64,000 nucleotides of DNA from Gimesia sp. (GTDB lineage Bacteria; Planctomycetota; Planctomycetia; Planctomycetales; Planctomycetaceae): assembly GCF_040219335.1 (NCBI RefSeq), contig NZ_JAVJSQ010000007.1, positions 248,001 to 312,000 on the forward strand, in the 5' to 3' direction. Within the stretch, counting starts at the first letter, position 1, and each line of letters opens with the position of its first letter. The position numbers were made by a program, and so were the translations under genes. Positions 26,612 to 31,789 of the stretch are shown here, one piece after another. The notes beneath the pieces were generated by a model. That model worked only from the letters and a program-made list of their open reading frames with translations, made no database searches and was not told the origin of the DNA.

Positions 26612-26746
26612 TGATGCGGCTGATCTCCGGTGTGCTGAATCAGCGATGATCTCCCTGTTTTCGCCGGTTACTGCTTGCGGTCTCCCCCTGTGATGTGACA
26701 TGATGTCTGTTCAATTGTGTATCAGGTCTGATTGAAGGGATGCGGA

Positions 26747-27613
26747 ATGAAATTTGTGCTGCTGAGCTTGTTTGCAGTGATGTGCTTGCTGGGAACCGTT
26801 ACTGCAGATGAGTTTGAGGTCGGGGGGAAGACTCTGGAGATACCCGCGCCAGAAGACTTCGTTCTGGTGACTCCCGCGATGGAAGAAGTTTACCATTACA
26901 GCCAGCTGGTGGACTCTGCCGACCTGTTGAATGAAAACGTGGCCTATTATATCTCCGCAGCGGAAGCGCCGGCTGCTTTGGAGGGGGAACTACCGGAACT
27001 TAAACGGACGTTCATTCTGAAGGCCAACCGAAAACTCAAAGACAAGGTAGTCGGTCTCGTCAATTTTCTGGAATTGAAAAAAGCGACCAAGCGCGAATAC
27101 CGGCAGATCATTCAGGAAATCAAAGCCAAAGATCCCAAAATTTACGAGCGGCTCAATACCGGCATTCAGGAGCAGTTCGACCTGGCGACCGCAATCGAAG
27201 TTTCTCAGCTGGTCCCGTTTGAGCCTCATTTCGAATCCTCGCACGCGCTGGCCGTCTCGATGTTTCTCACAATCTATCTGCCACCGGAAGAAGGGGCAGC
27301 AGAGGAAGCGGAACCAGTAGAGGAGATCTCAGCAGCGACCGCGACTGTGATGAACGTGGGGGGCAAGCTGCTGTTTCTGTTTTGTTACGCACCCCAGGAT
27401 GATCTGGAATGGACCCGCACCGCTTCCCGGGCCTGGACGAAAGCGATCATCGCTGCCAACGACAAGCCGCTTGTCGCGTCTTCCTATCCTTCAAACTTTG
27501 ATCTGCTGAAGCCTGATCAGGGAGACAAAATCGCCAAATGGATTCTCATCGGAGCTGCTGTGCTGGTGGCTCTGGCGATCTTCGTGAAAAAGAACCGGAT
27601 CAAGACCGACTGA
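26747..27613 (+). CDS. Secreted membrane-anchored protein, tandem family member A
   Basis: 288 aa from the ATG at 26747, with a GAAGGGA ribosome site upstream. Signal peptide ~1-20, then the family opening FEVGGKTLEIPAPEDFVLVTP. Shared landmarks are PFEPHFESSHAL (~160), the motif YAPQDDLEWTRTASRAW (~225) and a single C-terminal membrane helix (~267-283) with a basic tail. The bulk would face the outside of the cytoplasmic membrane. It is the first of three adjacent paralogues. Function unknown; there is no catalytic motif I can name. Confidence 0.7.
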   Translation: MKFVLLSLFAVMCLLGTVTADEFEVGGKTLEIPAPEDFVLVTPAMEEVYHYSQLVDSADLLNENVAYYISAAEAPAALEGELPELKRTFILKANRKLKDKVVGLVNFLELKKATKREYRQIIQEIKAKDPKIYERLNTGIQEQFDLATAIEVSQLVPFEPHFESSHALAVSMFLTIYLPPEEGAAEEAEPVEEISAATATVMNVGGKLLFLFCYAPQDDLEWTRTASRAWTKAIIAANDKPLVASSYPSNFDLLKPDQGDKIAKWILIGAAVLVALAIFVKKNRIKTD

Positions 27614-27622
27614 AGGCACTCT

Positions 27623-28492
27623 ATGAAGCACGCATCTTTCTGCTGGCTGGCTCTGATCCTGTGCTGCGGAAACTTTTTACAGGCAGAAACATTTCAGCTG
27701 AGGACAAGCCGCCTGGAGATTCCACCGCCTGCCGGTTTTGTGAATGTGACTCCGGAGATCAGGGAGCTGTTCCCCTTCGATCAGATTATGGCTGAAACGA
27801 AACGACAGGGGATGGACGTGTATTTCTATCTGACCGAAGTGCTGGCTGCTCAACTGCGCCAGGGAGAACCAGTCGAACCTGCGCGGTACCTGATTCTGCA
27901 GATCCCGGAGAAATCCAAACAACGTTCTTACAGTGCTTCCGATTTCGCGATGTTCAAGCTGACGACAAAAGAGAGGAACCAGGAATACCGGGACATGCTG
28001 GCCGAGAAGCTGAAGCAGACCCGCGACAATCTGAGTCGGGATCTCAGCCGTGAGCTGGATCTGAACGTCGCGTTTCAGATTTCAAATACGGTCGCCCTCG
28101 AACCGCATTTTGAATCGATCAATGAATTATCCAGCTCTAAGTATGTGTCCTATGGGGTGCAGGTCGAGGGCGCAGATGAGGTCCAGGATGCGAATGTCAA
28201 TACGCTCACTTTCCTGAATGTGAAGGGAAAGCTGATCGCCCTGGGGGCCATCGCGCCTTACAAGGATCTGGAATGGACGCGCACCACCTCCCGCGCCTGG
28301 GCAAAGGCGATCCTGGCACAGAATCCCGAGCCGTCTCCGTTCCCGGATCGCCTCCCGGATAACAGTCGCGAAAACCTGATTCCGATTGCAACACTGGTGA
28401 CACTGGCTGTGATGGCGGTGCTCGCCATCATCGTAAAACGAAGGCGGAAGCACGTGGCTTCCTCAGAGGATAAAAATGAAACGGTTGCGTGA
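27623..28492 (+). CDS. Secreted membrane-anchored protein, tandem family member B
   Basis: 289 aa. Signal peptide ~1-22, opening FQLRTSRLEIPPPAGFVNVTP, then ALEPHFESINEL and the motif IAPYKDLEWTRTTSRAW, and a C-terminal helix (~252-272) with a basic Arg/Lys-rich tail. It aligns along its length with the genes before and after it, differing most in the central charged helix. It follows member A by 9 bases and overlaps member C by 17, so the three are one operon. Confidence 0.7.
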   Translation: MKHASFCWLALILCCGNFLQAETFQLRTSRLEIPPPAGFVNVTPEIRELFPFDQIMAETKRQGMDVYFYLTEVLAAQLRQGEPVEPARYLILQIPEKSKQRSYSASDFAMFKLTTKERNQEYRDMLAEKLKQTRDNLSRDLSRELDLNVAFQISNTVALEPHFESINELSSSKYVSYGVQVEGADEVQDANVNTLTFLNVKGKLIALGAIAPYKDLEWTRTTSRAWAKAILAQNPEPSPFPDRLPDNSRENLIPIATLVTLAVMAVLAIIVKRRRKHVASSEDKNETVA

Positions 28493-29345
28493 AATCCTGT
28501 TGATATTAGTTTGTCTCAGTTCAAGCGTTTATGCCGAGAAGTTCAAGGTATGGGAAACTGAGATAGAAGTTCCTCCGCCCGCCGGGTTTGTACGCGTGAC
28601 TCCGGATTTGCCGCGTGTTTACCAGATGGCGGAAATGCTGGCTAAAGCAGATCCCAAATTTGAACAGCTGGGGTTTTACATTACAAAAGAAGATGCCGCT
28701 GCATCCCGGGCCGGTGAGTCGCCGGAAATACGACGTAAATTTTTTCTGCGTGTGATGAAAAACATGGCCCAACCGATTACGGGAGATGATCGATTTCAGG
28801 AAATTCAGGAGAACACGCGCGCGAATAACGATCCTGTGATAGAGGATTTCCGTTCCCGCGATCCGAAATTTTATGATCGGATTGTAGAGCAGGTCAAACA
28901 GGAGACGGGATCAGACCTGGATCTGAAGTTCTCTCAGTTTATCCCCTTCAAAGAGCACCATGCTTCGTCGAACATCTTTTCCTTCTCAATGCTCTTTGAA
29001 GGGACCATGTCTGACGGCGTTCGGAGCCGAACGGAGTTTCAGTCTTGCACGACCACGTTTCTGAATCCGGCCGGGAAGGTGATCTACCTTTACTGTTACG
29101 CGCCGCATGATGAACTGGCCTGGAACCGGGAAGCTTCACTGGAATGGGCGCAGGCGATCATGAAAGTAAATCCGGCAGCACCAGAGAAAAGTCCGGAGAA
29201 GCCGCAGATACCAGATGAGAAGCAGCTTCAATCAAATGCCGTATCGAAAATACTACTGGGTATCCTGCTTGTGGGTGTCATGCTTCTCTATCTGTTTCGA
29301 AGGAATCGTCCGCAGAAGACTGCCGCTATGAATGAGAGTCCGTAA
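28476..29345 (+). CDS. Secreted membrane-anchored protein, tandem family member C
   Basis: 289 aa. Signal peptide ~1-20, opening FKVWETEIEVPPPAGFVRVTP, then PFKEHHASSNIF and YAPHDELAWNREASLEW, and a C-terminal helix (~252-270) before a basic tail. In this copy PHFES has become EHHAS and the W-T-R-T of the other copies is W-N-R-E, so it has diverged most. It is the last gene of the run; scpB is convergent 38 bases later. Confidence 0.7.
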   Translation: MKRLREILLILVCLSSSVYAEKFKVWETEIEVPPPAGFVRVTPDLPRVYQMAEMLAKADPKFEQLGFYITKEDAAASRAGESPEIRRKFFLRVMKNMAQPITGDDRFQEIQENTRANNDPVIEDFRSRDPKFYDRIVEQVKQETGSDLDLKFSQFIPFKEHHASSNIFSFSMLFEGTMSDGVRSRTEFQSCTTTFLNPAGKVIYLYCYAPHDELAWNREASLEWAQAIMKVNPAAPEKSPEKPQIPDEKQLQSNAVSKILLGILLVGVMLLYLFRRNRPQKTAAMNESP

Positions 29346-29383: not shown

Positions 29384-30148
29384 CTATTTGTGATTCAGCG
29401 ATTCGCTGTAAGGCAGTTCTTCGATGTTACCCAGGCCGAAGACCTGCAGGAAGCGGCTGGTTGTGATGTATTTGACTTCGGCTTTCTTGTCTTCGTTGCG
29501 CTCAATGGCAATCAGTTCGCGACGGATCAACTGACGCAGGATGCCGGCCGCCTTGTCTTTGCCGGCGGCGATGATCTCGTCCTTGGTGATCGGCTGGCGA
29601 TAAGCGACCAGCGCGAGGACTTCCAGCGCGTCCTGGGTCAGCTTGACCTCCTTAGGGCCGAAACCATACACGCGGTTGCGGATGCGTTCGAAGTCGTGAC
29701 GGAGAATCAGGCGATAGCCCCCCTCCTCCATGCGGATTTCGTACGGGCGGGCCTCGTCGTTGTACTGGCGGTTCAGATCGTCGAGCAGATCGTCGACGTA
29801 AGATGTCGAGTACTCGTCGTTCAGCAGTGAGCAGAGTTTCTTCGTGGTCAGTGGTTTGCCGCCGACAAACAGCGCGGCTTCGATGATAGCACGCGGGGGG
29901 ATCCGGGTTTCCCGTTTGGTGGCGGTCTGGGAACTGGTTTTGACGGCAGCCGCTGCGACAGGCTCGTCTGTCTCAGGTTCTTCGGGGAGCTCCAGGTCCC
30001 GTTCGACGGCTTCCAGTGCTTCGAGCGTCCTTTCGTAGTCGGCGTCGATTTCTTCATCGACCTGACCTGATGACGAAAAGGCAGCCAGAAAGTCATCTTC
30101 GCTGGAGAGCCGATCGTCGTCGGCAGGGGTTTCTTCTTCCTGGGACAT
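29384..30148 (-). CDS. scpB: Segregation and condensation protein B
   Basis: 254 aa. ScpB is the winged-helix partner of ScpA and SMC in chromosome condensation. Residues ~1-75 are an acidic, low-complexity N-terminal extension not needed for the fold. The two winged helices run from ~82 with IIEAALFVGGKPLT, through EEGGYRLILRHDF and QDALEVLALVAYRQPITKDEI, to LQVFGLGNIEELP at the end. No scpA is adjacent in the window. A membrane protein gene lies 38 bases upstream on the same strand. Confidence 0.92.
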   Translation of the reverse strand: MSQEEETPADDDRLSSEDDFLAAFSSSGQVDEEIDADYERTLEALEAVERDLELPEEPETDEPVAAAAVKTSSQTATKRETRIPPRAIIEAALFVGGKPLTTKKLCSLLNDEYSTSYVDDLLDDLNRQYNDEARPYEIRMEEGGYRLILRHDFERIRNRVYGFGPKEVKLTQDALEVLALVAYRQPITKDEIIAAGKDKAAGILRQLIRRELIAIERNEDKKAEVKYITTSRFLQVFGLGNIEELPYSESLNHK

Positions 30149-30186: not shown

Positions 30187-30663
30187 TTACTGATTTAAGG
30201 TCAATACAAACGCATCCCACTCGGACTCTTCCTGTAACGGACCGATGTGGGCAGTGGCGTTATTGTGCATGTTTATGCGAAGTTGATCAACCTTTTTCTG
30301 GCAGCCGGGACAATGGGCCAGATGTTCCTTCATTTTACTGGTTGTTTCGGCGTCGAGCTTGTGAGCGACGAACGCTTCCGCATGGTTCAGCGCTTCATCA
30401 CAGTACAGTCCACCCGGGCACTTCTTACCTACCTTCTTCGCGACCTGTTCGGTTGGCGGTTCAGCAGAGCCTGAGAACGAGTTCAGACCAAAAAAGCCGA
30501 CCAGCCCGACGGCCAGACAGGCGGTGAGGATCTCGGCCCCGGTGATCATATGGCTGACTTTACGTCGCTTCTTCATCACGGTGACAAATTGTTCCAGGTC
30601 GCCCGGCGCGCAGGCCTTCCATTCAGATTCTGATTCGGTTTCGGATGTAAGTTGTATATTCAT
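30187..30663 (-). CDS. Membrane protein with C-terminal zinc-finger-like H-x3-C-x2-C motif
   Basis: 158 aa. A 38-residue N-terminal part ending in the basic patch KKRRK precedes one membrane helix (~40-62). After it come C82 and C88 and then H114-x3-C118-x2-C121, the motif of zinc-finger anti-sigma domains (zf-HC2). In anti-sigma factors that domain normally precedes the membrane helix and is cytosolic; here it follows the helix, so by the positive-inside rule it would lie outside. It has a perfect AGGAGG ribosome site partly buried in a hairpin, and a Crp-like box in its promoter. Confidence 0.7.
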   Translation of the reverse strand: MNIQLTSETESESEWKACAPGDLEQFVTVMKKRRKVSHMITGAEILTACLAVGLVGFFGLNSFSGSAEPPTEQVAKKVGKKCPGGLYCDEALNHAEAFVAHKLDAETTSKMKEHLAHCPGCQKKVDQLRINMHNNATAHIGPLQEESEWDAFVLTLNQ

Positions 30664-30673
30664 TTTTTAAACC

Positions 30674-30692
30674 TCCTACTGTCGCAGTAGGA
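30674..30692 (-). promoter_or_regulatory. Hairpin masking a ribosome binding site
   Basis: The 8-bp stem TCCTACTG / CAGTAGGA has a 3-base loop. The ribosome site AGGAGGT (30671-30677, minus strand) begins inside the 3' arm, with the ATG 7 bases further on, so folding would hide part of it. Confidence 0.5.
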
Positions 30693-30730
30693 TTTGTACC
30701 AGTTCTTGAGCGGGGGGATACCCTGTTATC

Positions 30731-30773
30731 ATTATCGTAGTCTGCTCTGGTGTGATCTGTGAGATAGCTTACA
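30731..30773 (-). promoter_or_regulatory. Crp-like box and -10 element
   Basis: On the minus strand, TGTAA-N6-TCACA (30758-30773) matches the Crp consensus at 9 of 10 defined positions. A -10 box GATAAT lies at 30731-30736. The start of transcription would be near 30724, placing the box centre about 41 bases upstream, the usual spot for a class II activator. Confidence 0.5.
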
Positions 30774-30821: not shown

Positions 30822-31577
30822 TCAGGCTTCCGCTCCTCTTAAGACAAATTCTCCCGACTGATCCGGTTTGGACTGAAAGGCGGGGGTGAGTTTGAAATCA
30901 ATCGAATGAGCCAGATAGCGGGCCTTTCTGAGGATGATGTGTCGTTTCTGGATATCGATACTGCGTTCGTCCTGCAGTTCGCCCAGCAGGACAGTCACGG
31001 TTTCACGTGTGCTGCCGATAATACTCGCCAGTTCCTGGTGCGAGAGTTTGATATTGATCAGAACGCCTTCGGGGGTAAACCGCCCGTATTTTTCCGCCAG
31101 TTCCAGCAGCAGATGCGTCAGCCGATCGCGGTTGGAGCGAAACAGCAGGGATTTGAGCCGCTGTTCCACCCGTTGCCGTCGGAGTCCCATCAGCTTGGTC
31201 ACACCCAGAGAGACTTCAGGATGCTGGTGCATCAGATCCTGAATCACGACTCCGGGAATGCGGAGAATGGTCGATTTCAGCATGGCTTCGGCATACTCTT
31301 CACGTTCGCCGCCGCCGAGGATCGCCAGTTCCCCAAACAGCTCACCCGGCTCGATCAGTGCCAGCAGAGCCTGTTTGCCTTCCCCCGTGATGTGGTAGAG
31401 CTTGATTCTGCCGTTGAGTAGCAGGTAGACCGAGTCGCTGGTTTCGGTGGGGAGATAAACCATGTTTCCCCGCGCGAACTGTTTGACGGACGCATTCCGT
31501 TCGACCTGGGCGATTTGATCTTCGCTCAGTCGTTCGAAGAGGTCACAGTTCTTGAGAAACCAGAAGTTTTTGTCCAT
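30822..31577 (-). CDS. Crp/Fnr-family transcriptional regulator
   Basis: 251 aa from the ATG at 31577. A cyclic-nucleotide-binding beta barrel (~10-130) holds the PGELFGELAILGGG phosphate-cassette-like block. A dimer helix follows, then the Crp winged helix-turn-helix (~165-225) with recognition helix GSTRETVTVLLGEL. The Arg-Glu pair matches R180 and E181 of E. coli Crp, which read the TGTGA half site, while the next Crp Arg is replaced by Val. Only one Cys is near the N-terminus, so it is not an Fe-S Fnr. The C-terminus extends ~20 residues beyond the fold. Effector unknown. Confidence 0.88.
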   Translation of the reverse strand: MDKNFWFLKNCDLFERLSEDQIAQVERNASVKQFARGNMVYLPTETSDSVYLLLNGRIKLYHITGEGKQALLALIEPGELFGELAILGGGEREEYAEAMLKSTILRIPGVVIQDLMHQHPEVSLGVTKLMGLRRQRVEQRLKSLLFRSNRDRLTHLLLELAEKYGRFTPEGVLINIKLSHQELASIIGSTRETVTVLLGELQDERSIDIQKRHIILRKARYLAHSIDFKLTPAFQSKPDQSGEFVLRGAEA

Positions 31578-31789
31578 GGACCTAAATCTCATTCCTGCGT
31601 TTTGACGCAGGTACCGGTAGCAGTAGTCAACGGTCAGTCAAACAGGCCCACTCACTCGGGTTATCGGGCAAACTATAATATATCGGGTTTACGGCGGATT
31701 TGAGAACCCCCGTTTTTACGAATCGGCTGTTTTTTCCATTTTGACAGCTGATGACAGCTGGGAAGTGAGAGACGCTGATCCGCCAGAAA

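Follow-up and report, generated by a model that had tools for sequence, protein, structure and literature searches.

In class II promoters activated by NtcA, the regulator site lies near −41.5, and 22 nt separate an activating site from the −10 element (PMC3898017). The promoter described here shares with class II Crp and NtcA promoters a dyad centred at −41.5 that overlaps the −35 region and a regulator with a Crp-type helix-turn-helix (HTH), and with NtcA promoters the 22-nt distance from the NtcA-type core to the −10 element (PMC3898017); it differs in its half-sites, TGTR and TCACAGA, and in its regulator, which is neither NtcA nor cAMP-CRP. The protein encoded downstream of the promoter contains the C-H-x3-C-x2-C domain of the ZAS proteins (RslA, RsiW and RsrA), but here the domain follows a transmembrane (TM) segment and is predicted to lie outside, and the partner gene codes for a regulator of the Crp type instead of a sigma factor. 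Its mRNA leader has a stem that pairs part of the Shine-Dalgarno (SD) sequence, as in SD-sequestering hairpins and RNA thermometers, but unlike the known ones the leader had no Rfam match at E values up to 1. No described regulon for a Planctomycetes Crp-type regulator was found in the open-licence literature.

Gene organization and the Crp-type regulator

The window is the whole stretch of 64,000 nucleotides of a Gimesia sp. genome that was analyzed, and all coordinates without a locus label refer to it. On the minus strand, the genes follow in the order NAD(P)H-hydrate epimerase, crp-type gene, zinc-finger gene and scpB.

30822–31592, minus strand: Crp/Fnr-family regulator, 256 aa (PF00027, 65.3 bits; PF13545, 54.1 bits; both over cut-off)
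30187–30663, minus strand: membrane protein, 158 aa (zf-HC2, PF13490, 30.3 bits, over cut-off)
29384–30148, minus strand: scpB (PF04079), 38 bp downstream of the zinc-finger gene

The scpB gene adjoins the zinc-finger gene in 16/16 Gimesia loci, and the two are possibly co-transcribed in this genus. Beyond scpB, the plus strand (26732–29345) has three ORFs in tandem, each about 290 aa long and all similar in their layout of signal, domain and C-terminal TM segment, apparently a tandem gene family.

The window regulator combines the cNMP-binding-type beta domain and the Crp-type HTH that define the Crp/Fnr superfamily, and it was the only protein in the genome with HTH_Crp_2 over cut-off; no HTH was seen, by sequence and length, in the two other cNMP-domain ORFs of the genome. 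One full-length Crp-type HTH match per genome was found in all 16 Gimesia genomes with the locus, and two of them (G002 and G003) had an additional partial match of 27 bits in a 386-aa frame. The recognition helix, STRETVTVLL, contains TRETV, and its TRE, including the Arg-Glu pair, was kept in all aligned orthologs. Together with the two domain matches, this bears out the earlier reading, made from the sequence only, of the upstream gene as a Crp-type regulator that keeps Arg-Glu.

The regulator resembles E. coli CRP in the Arg-Glu pair of the recognition helix and in the TGTGA half-site, but the two proteins are only 24% identical. Its score against the NCBIfam cAMP-CRP model was 75.7 bits versus a cut-off of 266; Arg82 is kept, the Ser83 position is acidic (Glu/Asp) in nearly all orthologs, and the C-helix Thr127/Ser128 pair is absent, which makes cAMP an unlikely ligand as judged from these residues. 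Identity with NtcA was rejected as well (TIGR03697, 98.2 bits versus a cut-off of 244.95), and so was identity with an Fe-S FNR, since the N-terminal Cys cluster is absent, C16 being the only Cys in that region of the window sequence.

No box of the type described below was seen in the crp upstream region that would indicate autoregulation. The crp promoter region (31650–31710, minus strand) carries a conserved GGGGGTTCTCAAA followed by TATATTAT and no Crp box in most Gimesia genomes; this pair is possibly the site of another regulator.

Predicted operator and promoter of the zinc-finger gene

The following elements were identified between crp and the zinc-finger gene.

30756–30773, minus strand: Crp-type operator TGTAAGCTATCTCACAGA, kept in 16/16 Gimesia loci and also present in other genera
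30731–30737, minus strand: −10 element CGATAAT (GATAAT at 30736–30731), 20 nt past the box
30724, minus strand: predicted transcription start (A), placed from the −10 position

The core box TGTAAGCTATCTCACA (30773–30758, minus strand) is of the TGTAA-N6-TCACA type, and its centre lies exactly 32 bp from that of the −10 element. With GATAAT at 30736–30731 and a start at 30724, the box is centred at −41.5, in agreement with the earlier reading of such a box about 41 bases before the predicted start. A scan of the region for sigma-70 −35/−10 pairs found no −35 hexamer for CGATAAT. The locus therefore has the operator at −41.5 overlapping −35, plus the −10 element, that characterize a class II promoter, the start itself being predicted.

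Geometry alone does not fix the sign of regulation, and Crp/Fnr proteins can repress too. In principle, the site could thus be an operator for repression, for example until a ligand releases the regulator; we consider this improbable, as the exact 32 bp to the −10 element and the missing −35 hexamer match class II activation, and the layout is common to NtcA-activated promoters (PMC3898017). Activation, as read from this geometry, is the preferred interpretation.

Conservation of the box and its spacing

With up to one mismatch, the box sequence alone had 37 matches in the window versus 48 expected and is not rarer than chance; its significance thus comes from position and conservation. A pattern scan of the 7.93-Mb genome found the box-N20-CGATAAT arrangement exactly once, at the zinc-finger promoter. 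All 16 Gimesia loci have TGTA(A/T)GCTA(T/C)(C/T)TCACAGA followed by CGATAAT 20 nt after TCACA, and the centre-to-centre distance is 32.0 bp in every one, within a spacer of which much is otherwise variable. A 17th Gimesia genome (G015), whose assembly is incomplete (74%) and lacks the locus, was left out of the 16.

Beyond the genus, 59 orthologous crp loci were sampled, 37 of which have an adjacent TM zinc-finger gene (36 found by script and one, G019, by reading). The box occurs downstream of crp in 21/59 loci, where first-order Markov shuffling of these regions predicts 0.23, and in 13/59 loci it is followed by a correctly spaced CGAT, versus 0 expected from the shuffles. Conservation of the box, one of the checks proposed with the earlier reading, holds within Gimesia and in part of the loci beyond it. 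All 21 boxes belong to loci with an adjacent zinc-finger gene (21/37 versus 0/22 others; Fisher P = 2.5 × 10−6). Two loci counted among the 22 (G077 and G108) have a box within the crp 3′ end with the zinc-finger gene after it, and reassigning them strengthened the association (P = 4 × 10−7); both P values overstate independence because the genomes are related.

Sites of the same type before thiol-redox genes

In the 17 Gimesia genomes summed, TGTR-N7-TCACAGA occurs 180 times versus 52 for the reversed control. Across 170 genomes of the order, a search for the composite site, in which the box is followed after 18 nt by CGATA, gave 64 matches, and its reversed control gave none. Among the 51 distinct composite sites, 46 precede four gene families: the first recognized gene is a zinc-finger gene at 20, DsbD at 13, DUF547 at 11 and a thioredoxin-like gene alone at 2. 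The DUF547 targets often have a thioredoxin-like gene next, which is absent in some. The remaining five sites precede other or unassigned genes, one of them, by reading, an apparent pyridine-nucleotide oxidoreductase. The names DsbD, DUF547, thioredoxin-like and MNIO (below) are backed by Pfam. As the pattern was derived from zinc-finger sites, the zinc-finger share of this count is partly circular, and it is the predicted DsbD, DUF547 and thioredoxin-like sites that provide independent support for a regulon. In four genomes (G033, G163, G183 and G184), a zinc-finger gene with the site lies away from any crp gene found.

Could the box and the hairpin described below be chance matches? The window has no excess of TGT-N8-TCACA taken by itself, as chance would have it; the invariance in Gimesia, the 64:0 ratio of composite matches and the recurrent target families already refute this explanation, which we regard as scarcely credible.

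The regulator and the zinc-finger family also occur together: among the 170 genomes, 67 have both, 5 the regulator only, 6 the zinc-finger family only and 92 neither (P = 9 × 10−34, uncorrected for relatedness). With the invariant geometry, the box found only with its target and a sole regulator per genome, the co-occurrence and the shared regulon strongly support the prediction that the zinc-finger gene is activated by the Crp-type regulator encoded next to it. The sequence-only reading had called this activation local, a term too narrow for a type of site that also stands before dsbD, DUF547 and thioredoxin-like genes.

A box was also found before a further operon.

L150:3044–3061 (G000:C22): palindromic Crp-type box
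L150:3094–5605 (G000:C22): genes for a Cys-rich precursor, MNIO (PF05114) and DUF2063

The near-perfect palindrome TGTGAGATAACTCACAGA recurs unchanged in nearly all of the Gimesia genomes listed, and the box of the MNIO operon lacks a clear CGATAAT. By analogy, the arrangement of Cys-rich precursor, MNIO and DUF2063 resembles bufferin clusters, which help growth under copper stress (PMC12452194). YHS-domain and thioredoxin-like genes lie near this operon.

Three other sites were noted. In some Gimesia genomes only, the gene for an ECF sigma factor is preceded by a Crp-type box (L153:2031–2696, G003); a DUF547 gene and a small ORF resembling a zinc finger lie nearby. Across a Crp-type site from dsbD, a divergent gene encodes a protein of 443 aa that contains a haem-type motif, CLACHAG, and matches no Pfam family (L151:1565–2896, G000:C31). 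A TCACAGA-N18-CGATAAT sequence conserved in several Gimesia (L101:1490–1532; also L090, L093, L095 and L098) was set aside, as it has no TGT half-site.

A leader hairpin over the Shine-Dalgarno sequence

The leader of the zinc-finger mRNA contains the following elements.

30712–30723, minus strand: 5′-terminal leader stem-loop (GGG...CCC), shape conserved in Gimesia by a fold of 15 leaders
30674–30692, minus strand: hairpin TCCTACTG-CGA-CAGTAGGA, 8 pairs, −9.6 kcal/mol
30672–30677, minus strand: SD sequence AGGAGG, 8 nt before the ATG at 30663

The 3′ arm of the hairpin pairs AGGA of AGGAGG, as expected from the earlier description of an 8-bp stem over part of the SD. The 19-mer, which had been chosen for its pairing, was more stable than any of its 200 shuffles, and the whole leader folds no better than its shuffles (z = −0.32). 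Across 15 distinct Gimesia leaders, 97.8% of the hairpin pair cells are kept versus 39–62% with the arms slid, and CCU/AGG is kept in 15/15. One stem pair covaries: in one clade of four genomes A-U is replaced by G-C, and another genome has G-U there. In the computed folds, pairing of the first SD bases is almost complete, the last GG is partly free and the AUG is largely unpaired. An alternative pairing of the left arm with an upstream AAGG was rejected, as by eye it is not conserved. The 5′ stem-loop starts near the predicted transcription start in most leaders, a position that fits this start; it could protect the mRNA.

By eye, no SD hairpin was seen in leaders outside Gimesia, so the hairpin is a genus-level addition. 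The translational part of the earlier reading, a putative switch, is only half borne out: in Gimesia the hairpin is conserved, has one covarying pair and keeps the SD core paired in silico, which supports the structure but not switching. Whether the hairpin switches at all is evenly balanced against its merely setting a constant low translation rate or protecting the mRNA. The latter fits the absence of an Rfam family and of any conserved alternative fold seen, the unpaired AUG and partly free GG, and the restriction to one genus; on the other side, the left arm CCT-C is invariant within an otherwise variable leader, and the stem persists in two genomes (G004 and G010) that have lost AGGAGG. 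These last two observations argue for a function, but not for switching. Most likely, as predicted from the pairing, the hairpin lowers translation.

The membrane zinc-finger protein

The 158-aa protein has an N-terminal WxxCxxG motif, one TM segment and a C-terminal C-H-C-C zinc-finger domain, and the PF13490 match confirms the earlier call of a membrane zinc-finger-like gene. In 14 aligned members, W15, C18 and G21 (W-x2-C-x2-G) and the zinc ligands C88, H114, C118 and C121 are invariant. Arg/Lys are commoner before the TM segment than after it in every protein compared, by a simple count and not a trained predictor; the N terminus is therefore predicted inside and the zinc-finger domain outside the membrane. 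The AlphaFold model has high confidence for residues 81–130 and poor confidence for the remainder. RslA was the best Foldseek match, weak by E value (0.25) at a match probability of 0.97 to 0.99, and a profile match to RsiW was found (E = 0.003).

The PF13490 match and the invariant ligands give the protein the H-x3-C-x2-C zinc domain of ZAS proteins. The protein nevertheless departs from a ZAS anti-sigma factor, as the zinc domain is predicted outside and the window neighbours are crp and scpB, with no adjacent sigma factor gene.

Discussion

Taken together, the intergenic region is probably a class II promoter that depends on an activator. The Crp-type regulator encoded next to it would bind TGTAAGCTATCTCACA centred at −41.5, substitute for the missing −35 contact and recruit RNA polymerase to CGATAAT, thereby activating the zinc-finger gene and, in Gimesia, probably also scpB behind it. 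Through sites of identical geometry, the same regulator would activate dsbD and the DUF547/thioredoxin-like operon, and a box of the same type precedes the bufferin-like MNIO operon; given these sites, the regulon would serve extracytoplasmic thiol, perhaps metal, homeostasis. In Gimesia, the hairpin that pairs AGGA should lower translation of the zinc-finger mRNA, so the membrane protein would stay scarce. Regulator binding, the direction of its effect, the translational effect and the signal are what we infer here from comparative sequence data.

More tentatively, the membrane protein could be both sensor and feedback partner of the regulator. Its outside zinc-thiol domain might read oxidation or metal stress, while the cytosolic WxxCxxG tail might bind and restrain the regulator, which would make more of the protein together with DsbD, DUF547 and thioredoxin-like proteins. 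If true, this would be an anti-sigma-like loop built on an activator.

The conserved site at the class II position and the identical sites before thiol-redox genes in many related genomes point to an undescribed gene-control circuit. A predicted Crp-type regulon of Planctomycetes now has an operator consensus and an exact promoter geometry; its targets fall into four recurrent families, and its regulator co-occurs with a membrane zinc-finger partner. These features suggest a way in which envelope thiol chemistry may be coupled to transcription in these bacteria with no sigma factor dedicated to the task.
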